In this document: piece after piece, positions 12,795 to 25,046 of the stretch | Layout: every line of letters begins with the position of its first letter | How positions within the stretch are numbered: position 1 is the first letter of the stretch | NCBI RefSeq assembly: GCF_014199615.1 | Contig: NZ_JACHOB010000005.1 | Coordinates: forward strand, 186,001-250,000 | Direction: 5' to 3' | Length of the DNA: 64,000 nucleotides | Origin: Parvularcula dongshanensis | GTDB lineage: Bacteria > Pseudomonadota > Alphaproteobacteria > Caulobacterales > Parvularculaceae | The notes under the pieces: model-generated | What the model saw: only the letters and a program-made list of their open reading frames with translations | The model's database searches: none | Told to the model about the DNA's origin: nothing | Made by a program: the position numbers and the translations under genes

Positions 12795-13235
12795 ATGGGC
12801 GTAGCCGTCTTGAACGGCCCGAACCTGAACCTGCTCGGCGAACGCGAGCCGGACATCTACGGCCGGACGACGCTCGGCGAGATCGAGAGCGCCTGCAAGA
12901 AGGCCTGTGACGCCAAGGGGATAGACCTCACCTTCGCGCAGACCAACGGCGAAGGCGCTTTGATCGACCTTGTTCAGGCAGCCCGTGCAGGCGACGGCAT
13001 CGTCATCAACCCCGGCGGGTACACGCATACGTCGGTGGCCCTGCGCGACGCGCTGTCGGCCTGCCCCTGCCCGGTGATCGAGCTTCACCTGTCGAACCCC
13101 GCCGCCCGCGAGGATTTCCGGCACAGATCGCTCACCGCACCGGTCGTGACGGGTATCGTTGCCGGTTTCGGAGCGGACGGCTACACGCTGGCACTGAATG
13201 CGCTGTTCGGCCTCATGGACAGAGACAAGAGTTGA
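12795..13235 (+). CDS. aroQ: 3-dehydroquinate dehydratase, type II
   Basis: Third step of the shikimate pathway, in the dodecameric type II family. The 146-residue length is standard. The family motif LNGPNLNLLGEREPDIYG carries the flexible-lid Arg and the catalytic Tyr (in DIYG); NPGGYTHTSVALRDAL and the catalytic His in ELHLSNP are intact. One oddity is that the usual QSNHEG reads QTNGEG here, so a normally conserved His is Gly. The gene overlaps or abuts accB, the same aroQ-accB-accC order as in E. coli, so it probably heads that operon. Confidence 0.95.
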   Translation: MGVAVLNGPNLNLLGEREPDIYGRTTLGEIESACKKACDAKGIDLTFAQTNGEGALIDLVQAARAGDGIVINPGGYTHTSVALRDALSACPCPVIELHLSNPAAREDFRHRSLTAPVVTGIVAGFGADGYTLALNALFGLMDRDKS

Positions 13236-13246
13236 GAAGGGACGGG

Positions 13247-13705
13247 ATGTCCGAAGCAGAAAAGATGGAACGCGACCTCGAAGCGATCCGCGCCCTCGCA
13301 GGCGTTTTGGACGAGACGGGCTTGTCGGAAGTCGAGATCGAGCGGGGCGGCTTGCGTCTTCGCGTCAGCAAGGGCCAGGTCGTCAGCACGGTCGCCGCGC
13401 CTGCCGCCGCAACCAGTGTAGCGGCACCTGCGCCTGCGGGCACGCCCGCGGCGGTGCCAGCAGCCCCGGAGGCCGGGGCCGTCCGCTCGCCCATGGTCGG
13501 CACGGCCTACCTTTCCCCATCGCCCGGTGCGGCGCCTTTCGTCACGGTGGGCGCGCAAGTCTCTCAAGGTCAGACGGTCATGATCGTCGAGGCGATGAAG
13601 ACGATGAACGAGATCAAGGCGCCTCACGCCGGTACGGTGAAGGAGATCCTCGCCCGAGACGCCGAGCCCGTCGAGTACGACGAGACTCTGCTGATCATCG
13701 CGTGA
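13247..13705 (+). CDS. accB: Biotin carboxyl carrier protein of acetyl-CoA carboxylase
   Basis: Carries biotin between the carboxylase and carboxyltransferase half-reactions in fatty-acid synthesis. The start at 13247 is preferred over 13232 because GAAGGG lies just upstream and the protein then begins MSEAEK. The N-terminal part is followed by an Ala/Pro-rich hinge (about residues 50-80) and the biotinyl domain. The biotinylated Lys is in EAMKTMNEI, where the usual EAMKM/L has Thr after Lys. It is 152 residues long and part of aroQ-accB-accC. Confidence 0.95.
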
Positions 13706-13745
13706 TGATCGAGGCTTACGACGCCACCGGCACGAGGACAGCCTG

Positions 13746-15095
13746 ATGTTTCAGAAGGTGCTCATCGCGAACCGCGGCGAGATCGCGCTTCGCATTCATC
13801 GGGCTTGTCAGGAGCTCGGCATTCATACGGTCGCGGTGCACTCGACCGCCGACGCGAACGCCATGCACGTTCGCCTCGCCGACGAGAGCGTCTGCATCGG
13901 GCCACCCGCGGCGAAGGACAGCTACCTCGACATCAGCCGCATCATCGCGGCGGCCGAGATCACCGGCGCCGACGCGATCCATCCGGGTTACGGCTTCCTG
14001 TCGGAGAACGCGCGCTTCGCCGAGATCGTCGCGGCGCACGGCATCACCTTCATCGGTCCCTCCGCCGACCACATCCGGGTCATGGGCGACAAGATCGCCG
14101 CCAAGGACACCATGGGCAGAGCGGGCATCCCGCTCGTCCCCGGTTCCGACGGCGGCATCGGCAGCGTCGAGGAGGGACGGAAGGTCGCCGAGAGCATCGG
14201 CTACCCGGTGCTCGTCAAGGCGGCCTCCGGCGGCGGCGGACGCGGCATGAAGCTCGCGCGGACGCCGGCCGACTTCGACGACGCCATGCTGACGGCGAAG
14301 TCGGAGGCGAAGGCGGCCTTCGGCGACGACGCAGTCTACCTCGAGAAGTACCTCGAGCTTCCCCGCCACATCGAGATTCAGATCGCCGCCGACAGCCACG
14401 GCAACGTGGTGCAGTTCGGGGAGCGGGACTGCTCCTTGCAGCGGCGCAACCAGAAGGTCGTCGAAGAGGCCTTGTCCCCTGCCCTGACGCAGGAACAGCG
14501 GGCCGAGATCGGCGAGATCACCCGCGCGGCGATCGAGAAGCTCGGCTACTTGGGCGTCGGGACGATCGAGTACCTCTACGAGAACGACCGCTTCTACTTC
14601 ATCGAGATGAACACCCGGATTCAGGTCGAGCACCCGATCACCGAGCAGGTGACGGACACGGACCTGATCCGCGAGCAGATCCGCATCGCGGCCGGGGAGA
14701 AGCTCTCGAAGACGCAAGATCAGATCACCTTCCGCGGGCATGCCATCGAATGCCGGATCAACGCCGAGGACCCGCAGACCTTCACCCCGAGCCCTGGCAA
14801 GATCACCGACTTCCACCCGCCCGGCGGCCCAGGCGTCAGGTTCGATTCCGGCGTCTATGACGGCTACACGATCCCGCCCTACTACGACTCGATGATCGGT
14901 AAGCTGATAGTGTTCGGCGACACTCGGGAGCTGTGCCTCGCCCGCTTGCGTCGGGCCCTGTCCGAAACGGTCATCACCGGCGTGAAGACCACCCTGCCCC
15001 TCTTCGAGCGCCTTCTGAACGAGCCGGACTTCCTCTCCGGCAACTATCACATCCACTGGCTCGAGCATTGGATGGAAGGGGCCGGCGACTCGTGA
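13746..15095 (+). CDS. accC: Biotin carboxylase of acetyl-CoA carboxylase
   Basis: ATP-grasp enzyme that carboxylates the biotin on AccB. It is 449 residues long, full length for the family. The N-terminal signature [13 protein letters not shown], the glycine-rich ATP loop [12 protein letters not shown] at about residue 159, the motif [14 protein letters not shown] and the catalytic [14 protein letters not shown] are all intact. It lies 40 bases after accB. Its stop overlaps the GTG start of pgsA (GTGA), so the phospholipid gene is translationally coupled to it. Confidence 0.97.
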
Positions 15096-15616
15096 CCGTC
15101 GCGACCTGGCTGACGATCGGGCGGATCGTGCTGATCCTGCCCTTCGCGGCTGCGTTGCTTGCGGGCTTGCCGTGGATCGCGGCGATCGTCTTCGCGCTGG
15201 CAGGATTGACCGACTGGTTCGATGGCTGGGTCGCGCGCAAGCGCGGCGAGGTGTCTGCCCTCGGCGCCACGCTGGACCCGGTCGCCGACAAGATGCTGAC
15301 GGCCGCCGCCCTGATTCTCTTCGCGGCGACGGGCGCGATTGCGGGCTGGCACCTCGTCGCAGCCCTAGTCATCGCGCTGCGCGAAGCCTTGATCGGCGGT
15401 TTGAGGGAAGCGACGGCGTCCGACGGCATCAAGCTGCCGGTCACTCCGCTCGCCAAGTGGAAGACGACGGCACAGTTCGCCGCCTTCCTCTTCTTGTGCT
15501 TCGGACCGAACGTCGTCGGGCTCGTCCTGTTGTGGCTGGCAGCGGCCCTGACGGCGGTCACAGGCTATCAGTACACGGCAAAGGCCGTCAGCGCCCTCAG
15601 CCTTCCCAGCGAGTGA
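15092..15616 (+). CDS. pgsA: CDP-diacylglycerol--glycerol-3-phosphate 3-phosphatidyltransferase
   Basis: Integral membrane enzyme making phosphatidylglycerol phosphate. The GTG start at 15092 overlaps the accC stop and gives a 174-residue protein of normal length. The CDP-alcohol phosphotransferase motif is complete: D44-G45, A48-R49, G58, D62 and D66. Several hydrophobic segments (about 5-35, 68-90, 130-165) fit a six-helix membrane protein. Its last 20 bases overlap, in the opposite direction, the end of the nitroreductase gene. The pairing with accBC links fatty-acid and phospholipid synthesis. Confidence 0.9.
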
Positions 15617-16211
15617 CGATGGCGTCCATGTCCGGGCGGTCGCGTTCCAGCGGCTGCTCGGCAGCCGTACCGAGGTGCAGGAAGCCTGCGATCCGCTCGT
15701 TCGGTTCGAGCGCCAAGCTTTCACGGACGGTCGCATCGTAAGCGGCGCTGCCGGTCAGCCACTGCCCCGCGAAACCATAGGCGGAAGCAGCGATCAGGAG
15801 GTTCTGGCAGACCGCGCCGGCCGTCAGCACCTGCTCCCATTCCGGCGTCTTGTGCTCGCGGTCGACCGACGAAACCACCGCGACGGTAACGGGCGCCTGA
15901 ACGAAGAGGGCGGCGTCCTTGCCAGCCTTACGCTCCGACAGGTCCGGGTCGCGCGCCAGGGCCGCCTTGGTAAGCACGTCGCCGAAGGCGCCGCGCGCCG
16001 TTCCTTCGAAGACGACGAAACGGAATGGCACGAGCTTTCGGTGGTCGGGCACACGGGCGGCGATCCGCAAGATCACGTCGAGCTGCGATGCGTCAGGCCC
16101 CGGCTCGTGCAAGAGTTGGAGCGGCGTCGATCGGCGCCGCGCCAGGAGCGCGAGCGTCTCGTCGGAGGGATGGGCGGCGGGAAGCGGCGTGCCGGGTTCG
16201 ATCATGTCCAT
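15597..16211 (-). CDS. Nitroreductase-family flavoprotein (YdjA-like)
   Basis: FMN-dependent oxidoreductase of the nitroreductase fold, 204 residues. The motifs are ALLARRRSTPLQLL (FMN phosphate region), RVPDHRKLVPFRFVVF and a C-terminal GFLHLGTAA, typical of the small YdjA branch. An alternative start is the ATG at 16205. It lies 39 bases after ftsA on the same strand, in the place where ftsZ normally follows, so it is the last gene of the dcw run. Its 3' end overlaps the convergent pgsA end by 20 bases. The physiological substrate is unknown. Confidence 0.88.
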   Translation of the reverse strand: MDMIEPGTPLPAAHPSDETLALLARRRSTPLQLLHEPGPDASQLDVILRIAARVPDHRKLVPFRFVVFEGTARGAFGDVLTKAALARDPDLSERKAGKDAALFVQAPVTVAVVSSVDREHKTPEWEQVLTAGAVCQNLLIAASAYGFAGQWLTGSAAYDATVRESLALEPNERIAGFLHLGTAAEQPLERDRPDMDAIVTRWEG

Positions 16212-16250: not shown

Positions 16251-17303
16251 TCAGAACCGTTCCTTGAGCCAGTCCAGAAGGCCCGGGCGGTTCGGCGTCG
16301 GTAGCTTCGCGACCGCGCGATCTCGGCTGCCGCGAAGTCCCGACACGATGAAACCGCCCCCGGCCAAAAGCGGATCGCGCGCGAGTTCGCTCGGCATCGC
16401 GCTCGGCACGGATGCTTCCCCCCGCCATGACCGCAGCGCGTTCGCCGGTAGCCCGCTGATCACCGCGGAGGTGCCAGTGGGGACGCCGGCTCTGGTCGCA
16501 GCTTCCTGAAGAAGGTCGTCGAGTTCTTCCAAACGCGCGGCGATCACCTTCTCGGCTTCGTCGTCCGGCCGACCGGACAGTACCCTGTCGACGCGGGCGG
16601 CCGCCCCGTCCGTCATCCCGAAGGCCTGGGCGACGTCCTGCTCCAGATGGCGACGGCCGATCGGAACGCGCGCCGCTGCGGTGAGGCCATCGTCGGTCGC
16701 GCGTACCATGACGCAGTCGCCGTAGCCGAGATGGATGGCGACGCCCTCGCCGCTCGGAAGGAACGCGGCCGCGGCGGCTTCTTCGGCTGGGATCACGCCG
16801 TCTAGCCTCGCCCCCGCCGAGCGGACAGCGGCGTCGAAGGCCGATAGGATCGCGATCGGTGCCGTCAGCGCGATGAGGTCGAGGGTGAGGTCCCGCCCCT
16901 TCCGTCCCATCGCATCGGGCACGGTCTTACCGTCGAGGACATAGGTGGCTGGGCGGCAGGAAAGGACTGCGGTGCCGGGGGTCGCGACGGCGTCGCGTGC
17001 ACGGCCGATCCCCTCGTCCAGCACGCTATGCGTGATCAACCCACCGACTGGGAGGTTGACTTCGATGCGACGCGGCGCGGCAACGCCGCCCGGCAGAACG
17101 AGGATGAGTCCGCCCGGTGCTTTCGCTTGGGTCAGCAGGTCGCGCAGGACCGTGCCAGCCGCCTCGCTCGGCCCTCCTTGGCGCGTAAGGCTTGGCCGGT
17201 CGCTCGTCGCGTGACGAAGGATGCTCAGCGTGCCGCCGCGCCCCGCCTCGCAGGTAAGGACGGCGGTGCCGGCCCGGCCGAGCCTGGCGACGGCGTGTGT
17301 CAT
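16251..17303 (-). CDS. ftsA: FtsA-like division protein with eroded nucleotide-binding motifs
   Basis: The position after ftsQ and the overall layout identify an FtsA homologue, expected to tether the Z-ring to the membrane. The evidence is the 1C-like segment with VNLPVGGLITHSV (about 83-94), PATYVLDG (118-125), VPIGRRHLEQDVAQAFG (213-229), and a terminal WLKERF amphipathic helix. At 350 residues it is shorter than the usual 400-430. The actin-fold motifs are degraded. No DIGTS-like phosphate-1 loop exists at the N-terminus. Phosphate-2 reads HLGYGDC (191-197) where DLGGGTT is expected, and the adenosine motif reads VISGLPANAL. The start at 17303 lies seven bases after the ftsQ stop; the longer upstream frame is a shadow of ftsQ. 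ATP binding is therefore doubtful. The assignment rests partly on synteny. Confidence 0.8.
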   Translation of the reverse strand: MTHAVARLGRAGTAVLTCEAGRGGTLSILRHATSDRPSLTRQGGPSEAAGTVLRDLLTQAKAPGGLILVLPGGVAAPRRIEVNLPVGGLITHSVLDEGIGRARDAVATPGTAVLSCRPATYVLDGKTVPDAMGRKGRDLTLDLIALTAPIAILSAFDAAVRSAGARLDGVIPAEEAAAAAFLPSGEGVAIHLGYGDCVMVRATDDGLTAAARVPIGRRHLEQDVAQAFGMTDGAAARVDRVLSGRPDDEAEKVIAARLEELDDLLQEAATRAGVPTGTSAVISGLPANALRSWRGEASVPSAMPSELARDPLLAGGGFIVSGLRGSRDRAVAKLPTPNRPGLLDWLKERF

Positions 17304-17310
17304 ATCGAAA

Positions 17311-18234
17311 TCAGTCCGCCTTCGGCTTGTAGTACGCCCATTTCGGGTCGCGAAGGTCGATGTAGTCGAGCGACGAGGCGAGCTTGCCCGTCCCCGCGCC
17401 GAGACCCTCCAGACGCTGCAACGCTTCCTCGATCCCTTCTTCGGGCAGCTTGGCGGTGAAGTCGTTGCGGAAACGCAGGTCGTAGCGGCGGTCCGAGACG
17501 CTGACGATGGCGGCCACGGTCTTGAGAAGCTGAGGATGCCGCTTGAGCTCACTGAGGACCGGGATCGCGGCGCCCGGCGCACTGGTGCCGACGATGACCG
17601 GCAGGTCCGTACGCTCCGCAGGCGCTACGGGACGCAGGGAGACGCCCTCCCCGTCGATCAGGTGCAAGACCCCACCGCTATCCTGCCAGAGCGCTTCGGG
17701 GCTACGCTCGATGACGGAGACGTGGATCGTGTTCGGCCAGAGCTTGGCAACTGCGGCGTAGCGAACGGGGCCGAGCGCTTCGAGCTTCCCGCGCGCGGCC
17801 TCCGCATCGAAGTGGACCAGAGAACGGCCGAGGACGGAGCCCTCTTCGTCCGTCCACAGTGCACGCAGCACTTCCCGCTCCGTCAGGCTGTGCCCCCCCT
17901 TGAGCGTGACGCGGCTGACCGAGAAGCCCGCCGCTCGCGCGGCGCCCGCCGTGATGCCGCCCAGGCGCTCGCCCATGTTGACGAAGTAGCCGCCCGCGAA
18001 GAGCGCGAAGAGGGCGATCAGGCCCATCGCGGTGACACCCGCCGCTGCGTAGGTGAGGAAGCCCGACCAGGCGCGCTTGAAGACATCGTCGAGGCGCGCG
18101 CCGGTGCGCTGCATCGCGCCGCCCTTGGGCGCCGTCTTCCGGGTACGCGCTGCCGTCGTGCCGCGGCGCTTGGCGGGGGCCTTGCGCTTCGCGGTCGTCT
18201 TCGCAGCAGGCTTGCGCTTGGTCACCTTAGGCAA
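17311..18234 (-). CDS. ftsQ: Cell division protein FtsQ
   Basis: Bitopic divisome protein linking early and late division proteins. It is 307 residues long. An unusually Lys/Arg/Ala/Thr-rich cytoplasmic tail (about 1-45) precedes one membrane helix (about 63-85). A POTRA domain follows (VSRVTLKGGHSLTEREVL), then the FtsQ beta domain (LWPNTIHVSVIERSPEALWQ). Its start overlaps the 3' end of ddl by 13 bases. It is followed by the ftsA-like gene, in the canonical ddl-ftsQ-ftsA order. Confidence 0.93.
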   Translation of the reverse strand: MPKVTKRKPAAKTTAKRKAPAKRRGTTAARTRKTAPKGGAMQRTGARLDDVFKRAWSGFLTYAAAGVTAMGLIALFALFAGGYFVNMGERLGGITAGAARAAGFSVSRVTLKGGHSLTEREVLRALWTDEEGSVLGRSLVHFDAEAARGKLEALGPVRYAAVAKLWPNTIHVSVIERSPEALWQDSGGVLHLIDGEGVSLRPVAPAERTDLPVIVGTSAPGAAIPVLSELKRHPQLLKTVAAIVSVSDRRYDLRFRNDFTAKLPEEGIEEALQRLEGLGAGTGKLASSLDYIDLRDPKWAYYKPKAD

Positions 18235-22553: not shown

Positions 22554-23692
22554 GTGCGCCGCCGCGTCAGCGCCAGGAGGAGGCCCATGGCAATGCCGGT
22601 CGCAACCAGCGAGGAGCCGCCATAGCTGACGAAGGGCAGTGTCATGCCCTTGGCCGGCAGGACCGAGAGGTTCACCCCGATGTTCACCGTCGCCTGGAAG
22701 GCGAGCTGCGCCGAGAGCCCGCAGACCGCGCATCGAAGGAAGACCGAGCGCGTTTCGCCCGCGAACTTGAACCCGCGGAACGCGATCGCGGCGAAGAGGG
22801 CCAGGATCAGCGCGCAAAGGAGGAAGCCGAACTCTTCGCCCGCTACGGCGAAGACAAAGTCAGTATGCGCATCCGGGAGCGATGCTTTTACCCCTTCGGT
22901 TCCGTGAAGGTCATGGCCGAGCGCCCCACCGCCCGAGATCGCTTCGAGCGCCTTGTCGGTCTGATAGGTGTCGTTGCCTTCCGGGTTTAGGAAGCGGTCG
23001 ATCCGGCTGCGCACGTGAGGTGCGATCCGATAGCCGAGCGCGAGCGCACCGGCAGCTGCCGTCCCGAGGCCCGCGATCCAGGCCCAGGACCAGCCGGCGA
23101 TGAAGAACATGACGCCCCAGATCGCGGTCAGCAGGATCCATTGGCCGTAGTCCGGTTGCAGGAGCAGCGTCGCAGAGCACGCAAGGTACAGGCCGAGGCT
23201 CACGATGCCGCCGGGGAAGCTCCTATCCCTCGCGCCCTCGGCCAGGAACCAGGCGCTCGCGATGACGAAGCCCGGCTTCATGAACTCCGACGGCTGAAGG
23301 CTGAACGGCCCAAGGTCGAGCCAGCGGTGTGCGCCCTTGATCTCAGGGCCTACGAGAAGGGCCAGCCACATGGCGAAGAACGCCCCCGCTCCGAGCACGA
23401 CGCCGAGACGCCGTGCGGTCAGGGCGTCCAGCGTCGACAGCGTCGCCATGACGAGGAGCGCAGGAACGAGGAAGACGATCTGCCGCTCGAAGAAGTGCAT
23501 CGGGTTCGAGATGCCGATCCGCGCCGCGGCTACCGGTCCGGCAGCGAGGCAGAGGACGAGCCCGATCAGGATCAGTGCGGCCGTGACCGTCACCAAGGCG
23601 GGGTCGAGGCTGCCCCACCAGGCCCGAACGGAACGCCAGGCGATGGGCGCAGAACCGTTGTGGGAGCGTGTCGTTCTCATCGTGTCAGCCAT
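22550..23692 (-). CDS. ftsW: Peptidoglycan glycosyltransferase FtsW
   Basis: SEDS-family polytopic membrane polymerase working with FtsI at the septum. The start at 23692 (MADTMRT) overlaps murD by eight bases and has AAGGCGG upstream; an ATG at 23680 would avoid the overlap. About ten hydrophobic segments are visible. Family motifs include FFERQIVFL, GAHRWLDLGPFSLQPSEFMK, the catalytic-Asp region DAHTDFVFAVAGEEFGF and the terminal LPFVSYGGSSL. It is about 380 residues long. In the dcw operon between murD and murG. Confidence 0.95.
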   Translation of the reverse strand: MADTMRTTRSHNGSAPIAWRSVRAWWGSLDPALVTVTAALILIGLVLCLAAGPVAAARIGISNPMHFFERQIVFLVPALLVMATLSTLDALTARRLGVVLGAGAFFAMWLALLVGPEIKGAHRWLDLGPFSLQPSEFMKPGFVIASAWFLAEGARDRSFPGGIVSLGLYLACSATLLLQPDYGQWILLTAIWGVMFFIAGWSWAWIAGLGTAAAGALALGYRIAPHVRSRIDRFLNPEGNDTYQTDKALEAISGGGALGHDLHGTEGVKASLPDAHTDFVFAVAGEEFGFLLCALILALFAAIAFRGFKFAGETRSVFLRCAVCGLSAQLAFQATVNIGVNLSVLPAKGMTLPFVSYGGSSLVATGIAMGLLLALTRRRT

Positions 23693-25046
23693 GCTGGACC
23701 GCCTTTTCGATGCCGTTACCCAGCAGCTCGCGGAACTCTTGCGCATTCGCCGGTCCGCCCGGCGAGAACAGCACGACGGGTGCACAATGCGGCTCACCGC
23801 GCGCCAGGGCCTGCGCATCGCGGCGGGCCGCCTCGAGCGCGGCGCCTAGATTGTCGAAGCGCGAACAAGGAACTTCGATACCGCCGCGGGCCTCGCCCGG
23901 TCCGAATAGGTACGCGGCGCGCAACGTCGGGTGTGCACCCTTCAAAGACGCCCCCGCCGCCTGGCCGATCCAGAAGACGTCCGGGCAGCTGTCGATGGCG
24001 AGGCCGACCGAGACGGGCAAGCGGGCACGGTGATCGTCGACGAACAGCACGCTGCCCTCGGAACCGAGCGCCTGGAACCGCCCCTCCAGCCCCTTGTAGC
24101 GATGCAGCGCCTTGATGATCAGCTGAGGCGGCACGTCGAGGGCGAGGCTCGCTGCGATGGCGGCGGCAGCGTCCTGGTTCAAATGCTTGCCTGAGAGCGC
24201 CCCGACGCGGGTGAAGTCGCCGACGGCGTGGGTCTTGCCTTCCCGCGAGGAGAAGGCGAGGCCTTCGAGGGCGAAGACGCCGTGCCCGAGGCTGGCCTCC
24301 CCCGATGCTGGGATGACACGGGCCCGACCGACCTTCGCCGCGTCGCCGGACTGAAGGGCCGTGCAGACCTTGAGACCGATGCCGTCGTCGACGCTGATGA
24401 CCGCCGCGTCGCCGTGCTGATGCTGACGGAAGAGGCGCATGACGGCCCGCAAAGCGGCATCGAACCCGTCCATCTCGCCGCAGGGGCCGAGGCTGAGCAT
24501 GACGGACACGTCGCAGCGGAAGCGCCGCGCCGCTGCCAGCCGCGCGACCGGAAGCTCGACGATGTAGGTCATCCCGGCCTCGGGCGCCGGTAGGGACAGA
24601 CAGGGTGCGATGCCGCCGCCCCCGAGGACCGCCTTGCTGCCGTTCGCCTCGACGGCGCGCGCGATCAAGGTGGCGGTTACCGTCTTGCCGGCGGCGCCGG
24701 TCACGCCGACCACCCGGGGCCGTTCCCGGCTGGGCAGGGACTCGATGGTGCTCGAGAACAGGTCGAGATCCGTCAGGATGGCGATACGCTGCGCCTTGGC
24801 CCTGGGCAGGACGATCTTGGCGCCGCCCGACACGCCGCCGTCGCACAGGACGATCGCGTCGAGCCCGTCCAGGCTCGCTCGCGGCCCCTTCACCGTGAAC
24901 GACGCTGCCTCGCGCCGCGAAGCGTCGTCGTCCCAGACCGAAACCTTGGCGCCCGCCGCCCGCAACGCCTCCGCCGCCGCCCGCCCCGCAGGACCGAGCC
25001 CGAGGACGCGTACGGTCGTGCCCTTCATCTGAGGCAGAGGAAACAT
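23685..25046 (-). CDS. murD: MurD-family ligase lacking key catalytic motifs
   Basis: By position (mraY-murD-ftsW) and overall similarity this is the UDP-MurNAc-L-Ala--D-Glu ligase, 453 residues. The N-terminal GLGPAG fold, P-loop GVTGAAGKT (114-122) and a metal-site Glu (VELPVARL, Glu164) remain. The central motif that should read NxTPDHLDRHG is missing five to six residues: LSLGP runs straight into CGEMDGF (184-195), deleting the metal-binding His. The usual carbamylated Lys a few residues later is absent (FDAALRAVMRLF). The C-terminal DSKATN motif reads DHRARL (338-343), and LSPACASFDQF reads FSPGGPANAQEF. The frame is open throughout, with no frameshift. It is either a pseudo-ligase or an extremely divergent MurD. 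Confidence 0.8.
   Translation of the reverse strand: MFPLPQMKGTTVRVLGLGPAGRAAAEALRAAGAKVSVWDDDASRREAASFTVKGPRASLDGLDAIVLCDGGVSGGAKIVLPRAKAQRIAILTDLDLFSSTIESLPSRERPRVVGVTGAAGKTVTATLIARAVEANGSKAVLGGGGIAPCLSLPAPEAGMTYIVELPVARLAAARRFRCDVSVMLSLGPCGEMDGFDAALRAVMRLFRQHQHGDAAVISVDDGIGLKVCTALQSGDAAKVGRARVIPASGEASLGHGVFALEGLAFSSREGKTHAVGDFTRVGALSGKHLNQDAAAAIAASLALDVPPQLIIKALHRYKGLEGRFQALGSEGSVLFVDDHRARLPVSVGLAIDSCPDVFWIGQAAGASLKGAHPTLRAAYLFGPGEARGGIEVPCSRFDNLGAALEAARRDAQALARGEPHCAPVVLFSPGGPANAQEFRELLGNGIEKAVQHG

Follow-up and report, generated by a model that had tools for sequence, protein, structure and literature searches.

Division around FtsZ does not everywhere involve FtsA. In Actinobacteria it is SepF-based and FtsA is absent, and in Caulobacter FzlC is an anchor for FtsZ. 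SepF-based division without FtsA is described, for instance, in archaea (PMC8178401). Where FtsA is present, its nucleotide site has been altered in E. coli, and one study (PMC10213515) reports that replacing the phosphate-1 residue E14 (E14R) abolishes function in vivo, with 0% rings, that D210A ranks with the mutants that restore growth least well, again with 0% rings, and that the ATP-pocket mutant S84L loses function as E14R does. In vitro, E14R retains ATP binding and hydrolyses ATP at a lower rate; losing a single ligand is therefore no proof that binding is lost. Elsewhere in FtsA, S12-S13 of subdomain 2B are needed for FtsZ recruitment, and subdomain 1C serves self-interaction and the recruitment of FtsQ and FtsN (PMC4281207).

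Results

A descendant of ftsA in the dcw cluster

The window analysed here is a stretch of 64,000 nucleotides from Parvularcula dongshanensis, part of a 3.13 Mb assembly in 16 contigs with a listed completeness of 99.98%. Its minus strand carries a dcw cluster in the order mraY-murD-ftsW-murG-murC-murB-ddl-ftsQ-ftsA, followed by a nitroreductase-like gene (15597-16211, minus strand; named by reading) at the place where ftsZ would be expected; the names of most cluster genes come from reading, that of ftsQ from Pfam and that of murD from an NCBIfam match below cut-off. The ftsA gene (16251-17303, minus strand; 350 aa) is open from its ATG, 7 bp past the stop of ftsQ, which lies directly upstream (17311-18234, minus strand; Pfam and comparison of the genus loci). 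Since so little space separates the two genes, there is no hidden upstream 5' part that could hold a phosphate-1 loop, and a missed 5' part or frameshift was ruled out. The order ddl-ftsQ-ftsA-nitroreductase is kept in nine loci of the genus.

The earlier note on this DNA had called the product an FtsA homologue without a recognisable ATP site, and the reading frame, profile homology and motif columns in nine proteins of the genus bear this out. The window protein scores 31.6 bits against TIGR01174, short of the curated cut-off of 175.85, and stays below cut-off against both PF02491 (17.7 bits, cut-off 25.4) and PF14450. A profile-profile comparison of the nine genus proteins with 17 alphaproteobacterial FtsAs nevertheless gave a probability of 99.6% and an E of 1.4e-24 over columns 59-353; the hhalign alignment omitted the N-terminus, where alignment is uncertain. 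The nine-protein profile also matches three solved FtsA sequences, with E from 9e-10 to 2e-9.

The structure prediction proposed in the earlier note was run, and in the model the FtsA fold is kept, strand 1 and the phosphate-1 loop being without a counterpart. The AlphaFold2 model of the window protein (48-row alignment) reached a pLDDT of 78.4 and a pTM of 0.76; because its alignment consisted of canonical FtsAs only, the model leans towards the FtsA fold, and its low pLDDT may just reflect the small number of relatives. Foldseek returned FtsA as the best match, and VIA-align 2 placed 310 residues of the model on E. coli FtsA with Z 24.9 and rmsd 3.1. A control model, the canonical FtsA of the Parvularculaceae MAG L106 (47-row alignment, pLDDT 89.2), gave Z 44.8 over 372 residues with rmsd 2.4 in the same comparison. 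Position, profile homology and predicted fold together show that the window gene is a direct descendant of the dcw-cluster ftsA.

The earlier note's reading presupposed a single ftsA, and a TIGR01174 search of the 16-contig assembly, in which gaps are possible, found no second one in the window genome. Two other, weak matches fall in ORFs of 371 and 703 aa, which by length and matched region only are read as MreB-like and DnaK-like.

Two features of the surroundings were also recorded. accB, accC and a pgsA-like gene (names assigned by reading; window 13232-15616, plus strand) converge on the ftsA/nitroreductase end; the pgsA-like and nitroreductase-like genes keep their order in all ten genus loci and accC is found in nine, the short G008 contig ending before it. 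Further upstream, murD (23685-25046, minus strand) is eroded too, with 108.6 bits against TIGR01087 (cut-off 211.95). The other genus MurDs scanned (four of ten proteins, the window's included) score 122 (G002), 123 (G004) and 117 (G006), and outside the genus the values are 173 for Aquisalinus L050 and 343 and 352 for the Parvularculaceae L051 and L047. Six aligned genus proteins, and L050 as well, lack the SPDH and DSKATN stretches that L051, L047 and L046 have.

The ATP site: what is gone and what lingers

Comparison proteins came from 80 loci among the matches listed in a Ddl search, 76 of which gave an FtsA while the other four end soon after ddl; 72 of the 76 passed a filter on length and a P1-like pattern, 49 were kept for diversity and 47 were used, L173 and L180 being excluded. 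The phosphate-1 loop, reported missing from the window protein, is missing from the genus: within the first 60 residues the motif occurs in 0/9 genus proteins as against 47/47 comparison proteins, the latter having been chosen through a P1-like pattern (72/76 when unselected proteins are held to a stricter one). Anywhere in the chain, the pattern matches one of the nine. Residues 1-15 of the window protein (17259-17303, minus strand), which take the place of FtsA strand 1 and the phosphate-1 loop, contain no D/E-x-G-x-x-K motif. The structural alignment of the model begins at its residue 10, equivalent to E. coli FtsA residue 17 and thus behind E. coli E14, the phosphate-1 residue; in sequence alignments the place of E14 is taken by arginine, either R7 or R10 according to the aligner used. 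Model residues 1-11 have a pLDDT below 50, and the phosphate-1 block of the control (residues 11-20) averages 96. In the joint alignment with the 47 canonical proteins, D15 is kept in one, G17 in two and K20 in none of the nine genus proteins.

At the phosphate-2 position the HLGYGDC stretch singled out by the earlier note is present (16713-16733, minus strand). There the acid, D214, is absent from all nine genus proteins, G216 is kept in three and the threonine T220 in six, the window protein not being among them. The weight placed on this stretch does not hold in isolation: HLGYGD alone is not decisive, because the ATP-binding FtsA of Thermotoga, solved with ATP (1e4g), has NLGYNFT there. 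E259 is kept in 3/9 and the lysine of AERxK, K262, in 0/9. The adenosine motif was rightly described as degraded, with SGLP replacing TGGG/TGGA at the adenosine-loop position in joint and profile alignments (16446-16457, minus strand); among the genus proteins T333 survives once, G334 nine times and the second glycine, G335, once. Indeed, when the remnant pocket was followed into relatives, all nine genus proteins proved to be in the same degenerate state.

Judged from sequence, the alignments show that the FtsA of this genus no longer has strand 1 and its phosphate-1 loop, the acid of phosphate-2 or the GG of the adenosine motif, and that about 23 residues of 2B are gone as well. We infer that the protein would neither bind ATP nor form ATP-dependent filaments.

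Loss from 2B and retention elsewhere

The window protein was described as 60-80 residues short, and at 350 aa it is 77 below the median of 427 for the 47 trimmed alphaproteobacterial FtsAs. The shortening is spread over the chain: the N-terminal stretch up to D142 has a median of 109 residues in the genus vs 148 in canonical proteins, the D246-R305 spacing 38 (34-39) vs 61 (58-62), and the C-terminal stretch 73 vs 85. About 23 residues between D246 and R305 are absent from 9/9 genus proteins, and the junction lies around residues 237-250 of the window protein (16554-16595, minus strand), where, from the control model and the D246-R305 spacing, the part that holds the 2B beta-hairpin is missing. 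In the control model this stretch holds a beta-hairpin with strands 278-282 and 290-294, which on the model is taken for S12-S13 of 2B.

Just beyond the junction, on the helix presumed to bind FtsZ, R305 and E308 are present in 9/9 genus proteins. In the window protein these are the invariant R and E of R257-L-E-E260 (16524-16535, minus strand), and by alignment count R305 equals window R257 and Thermotoga FtsA R301, which we take to be a contact of the FtsZ peptide in 4a2a. For FtsA residues that contact FtsZ, the accessible literature, including parts of PMC7613929 and PMC5508204, yielded no account. Across the protein, 55 columns are at least 90% conserved in the 47 canonical FtsAs and eight of them are kept in all nine genus proteins (D142, G152, G239, D246, A258, R305, E308 and G334); that both R305 and E308 are among the eight has p = 0.019 under a random draw, a post hoc figure. 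Only 15 columns are invariant among the nine genus proteins, in an alignment that lacks the last residue in 7/9 rows and in which start codons were guessed except for the window protein's. Unchanged in all nine are the W of the terminal helix, R257, E260, D124 and G133 (window numbering).

Subdomain 1C (residues ~76-149; 16857-17078, minus strand) is the best-predicted part of the model. Its PF02491 match is the sub-threshold one given above, the profile matches to PDB sequences cover it, and all seven blocks over residues 81-150 have a pLDDT of 92-98. The terminal WLKERF helix of the earlier note is likewise present, as LDWLKERF (16254-16280, minus strand), with its W in 9/9 genus proteins. 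Hydrophobic moments of this helix range from 0.34 to 0.84 in the genus, and the canonical mean is 0.68 (37 of 47); the window helix, at 0.34, a value reached by 58% of shuffles, is not clearly amphipathic.

Distribution and loss of the gene

No genome of the genus (0/10) passes the TIGR01174 cut-off, vs 47/52 in other genera of Parvularculaceae. Among the five misses in the latter group, four genomes give no match at all and have a completeness of 78-89%, and the single match (169.7 bits) starts at a contig end. Of the genus genomes themselves, 8/10 reach a completeness of 90% or more with contamination of 5% or less, G001 being 89% complete and G008 having 6% contamination. With a profile built from the genus, the degenerate ftsA is found in nine of the ten, short, open and in the same place. 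The tenth, G006, is a single contig of 2,902,643 bases in which the nitroreductase-like gene comes straight after ftsQ, a clean loss of ftsA (L086:8867-8935), and neither TIGR01174 nor the genus profile found a relocated intact copy there. Thus ftsA is dispensable in G006, and since this genome has none, the function of the gene in the genus is replaceable. Because G006 lost ftsA and kept its nitroreductase-like neighbour, ftsA cannot be an obligatory partner of that gene.

In a FastTree phylogeny of eight joined proteins, with gaps for incomplete loci, the genus holds together with support 1.0 and has Aquisalinus as its sister (1.0). G006 groups with G007 (0.951), which carries a degenerate gene, so the deletion came after the degeneration; the other nodes within the genus are weak (0.768, 0.695, 0.472 and one without a value).

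A wider sample comprised 389 Alphaproteobacteria with a listed completeness of 95% or more, of which 376 match FtsA at E 1e-20 and 365 pass the cut-off. Thirteen lack a match at that threshold. The window genome is the largest of them, and since the other 12 measure 0.9-1.9 Mb, a genome of 3.1 Mb in this class is unusual in the sample. FtsA may have eroded in those 12 small genomes too. The genus f54 g70 (~0.9 Mb) includes one of them, and its other four sampled members match only very weakly, at E 8e-25 to 6e-21.

Selection on ftsA

The ftsA frame is free of stops in 9/9 divergent species of the genus. By the Nei-Gojobori method its dN/dS is 0.18-0.51 in seven of eight pairs, the eighth being saturated; with dS at 1.03-2.95, these values are only rough. 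They exceed those of ftsQ (0.15-0.33) in 6/7 pairs and those of the nitroreductase-like gene (0.11-0.31) in 6/7, and between the window genome and G002 the ftsA products are 0.47 identical vs 0.67 for FtsQ. A dN/dS below 1 yet mostly above that of the neighbours makes selection look relaxed, not absent. With an open frame in 9/9 species and dN/dS below 1 in 7/8 pairs, the ftsA descendant appears still to make a selected protein.

FtsZ and candidate anchors

Each of the ten genus genomes has one FtsZ, and in all ten, G006 included, it ends in the core (L/V)(E/D)(I/V)PAFLR(R/K), resembling most other alphaproteobacterial FtsZ termini compared, with L166 a clear exception. In other Parvularculaceae, seven FtsZs terminate with SFLRKK(K/R) followed by two further residues, and those of the genus and Aquisalinus with AFLR(R/K) (L004, L065-L073 and L105 compared with L087-L092, L095 and L109). 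As G006 combines a normal-looking FtsZ with no ftsA, another membrane partner of FtsZ in the genus is probable; something besides FtsA presumably uses the FtsZ C-terminal core in G006.

In the window genome the only ftsZ over cut-off lies on a different contig (G000:C2:428401), so the earlier remark that ftsZ is no longer adjacent was correct. A connection with the altered ATP site was not borne out: ftsZ follows ftsA by ~1.5 kb in Aquisalinus luteolus (L105, L050) and is not within 2.5 kb after the canonical ftsA of L090 (Aquisalinus) and L093 (another genus), so ftsZ can be displaced where the ATP site is intact. Relatives in at least four other genus loci exist for four neighbours of ftsZ, by reading a reductase, an isomerase, an uncharacterised protein and a short secreted acidic protein.

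SepF and ZipA were rejected as replacement anchors. The SepF domain (PF04472) was found in 0/61 genomes, the ten of the genus among them, with matches in 7/14 controls, and ZipA (PF04354) in 0/10 genus genomes, with a match in E. coli among the 14 controls. FtsE, a possible FtsZ contact, occurs in all ten genomes, nine times over cut-off, which neither proves nor excludes it as the anchor. A basic N-terminal tail of FtsQ was considered as an anchor, an idea taken from PMC10036325; by eye the tail is basic in all 18 family FtsQs viewed (10 of the genus, 8 others), and because it is basic in those eight as well, the feature is not genus-specific.

Discussion

We lean, by a little more than an even chance, towards the view that the window protein serves the divisome as an adaptor that does without ATP, that selection on it is relaxed and that FtsA is on its way to being lost. 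Such an adaptor would work independently of nucleotide and would form no ATP-dependent actin-like filaments. Its C-terminal helix would sit at the membrane, and its 1C subdomain would contact the late divisome, by analogy with the known FtsA 1C that recruits FtsQ and FtsN. Contact with the C-terminal peptide of FtsZ may persist through the conserved R..E helix, FtsZ would probably have another membrane partner, and the genus would represent an intermediate stage of FtsA loss. Against the adaptor stand T220 in 6/9 proteins and G334 in 9/9, the ATP-binding Thermotoga FtsA with its unusual phosphate-2 sequence, the ATP binding of E. coli E14R, the terminal helix of the window protein with its low hydrophobic moment, the dispensability of the gene in G006 and the loss of the 2B hairpin, which tells against FtsZ binding. 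The interpretation offered in the earlier note is supported in its premises, namely the unrecognisable ATP site, the lack of a second ftsA and the position of ftsZ, and the state extends across the genus. Its picture of a simple membrane tether is less well supported, with ~23 residues of 2B gone, although the invariant R..E pair of the next helix points the other way. A tether for FtsZ is possible; it is not our main reading because the late-divisome side is kept and the FtsZ side damaged, by the assignment in PMC4281207.

The gene could instead be a decaying relic with no important role left, under relaxed selection and leaving the whole genus as it has left G006. We consider this unlikely, while giving it real weight. 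Loss in one of ten genomes speaks for it, as do an evolutionary rate above that of each neighbour in 6/7 pairs and the mere 15 invariant columns; yet for a relic of such age a frameshift would be expected somewhere, and the frame is open in all nine divergent species with dN/dS below 1, while the terminal-helix W, R257, E260, D124 and G133 have not changed.

It is improbable that the protein is a working FtsA ATPase whose divergent pocket still binds ATP through substituted ligands, as the kept fold, the phosphate-2 threonine in 6/9, the NLGYNFT of ATP-bound Thermotoga FtsA and the ATP binding of E. coli E14R in vitro (PMC10213515) might suggest: the phosphate-1 lysine and the phosphate-2 acid are each found in 0/9 and the second adenosine glycine in 1/9, and the phosphate-1 strand has no counterpart in the structural alignment of the model. 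Neofunctionalisation outside division, for example as a partner of ftsQ or the nitroreductase-like gene with FtsA as scaffold only, would fit the lost 2B hairpin and the neighbour conserved in nine loci but is very improbable for a protein that keeps the FtsA-type terminal helix and the R..E pair at a locus still within the division cluster.

If the adaptor reading is right, the genus may document an evolutionary series in which ATP binding and ATP-driven filaments were lost, a nucleotide-free adaptor persisted and the gene was then deleted, so that G006 divides with FtsZ and without FtsA, SepF or ZipA; we regard this series as an evenly balanced proposition. Were it true, proteobacterial division would not strictly depend on ATP use by FtsA, and FtsZ in this genus would have an anchor other than FtsA, SepF or ZipA. 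A pocket removed by evolution, together with a clean-deletion member, makes it possible to ask which FtsA functions need nucleotide, and the genus with its ftsA-less member offers a natural experiment on the reason for which division ordinarily requires FtsA. The open-licence literature, covered mostly through listings and abstracts and so a weak negative, gave no report of FtsA loss in the Parvularcula group; in one paper that mentions both FtsA and Parvularcula, the terms occur in unrelated sections.

Several known systems invite comparison. After FtsA, the next best folds for the window model are PilM (Z 20.6) and EutJ (Z 16.6). PilM belongs to a pilus gene context, which the window gene does not share, its context being dcw in nine loci; by their titles, PilM entries among the structural matches were solved with ATP, ADP, AMP-PNP or a partner peptide. 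The cytoplasmic domain of GspL in type II secretion has an actin-like fold and is a nucleotide-free membrane-side adaptor; it belongs to a different system from the window FtsA. SepF-based systems divide with FtsZ and without FtsA, as we infer for G006, but SepF was found in 0/61 of the relatives. The closest relatives remain the FtsA structures themselves (E. coli 7q6d, Xenorhabdus 7q6g, Vibrio 7q6f and Thermotoga 1e4g/4a2a), which match the window model with Z 23.8-25.6 over 302-313 residues. Unlike these known FtsAs, the window and genus proteins have no phosphate-1 motif, no acidic phosphate-2 residue and no AERxK lysine, keep the second adenosine glycine in 1/9 and have lost some 23 residues of 2B; with them they share the operon position, the overall fold and 1C subdomain as predicted, the R..E pair and the W motif of the terminal helix.
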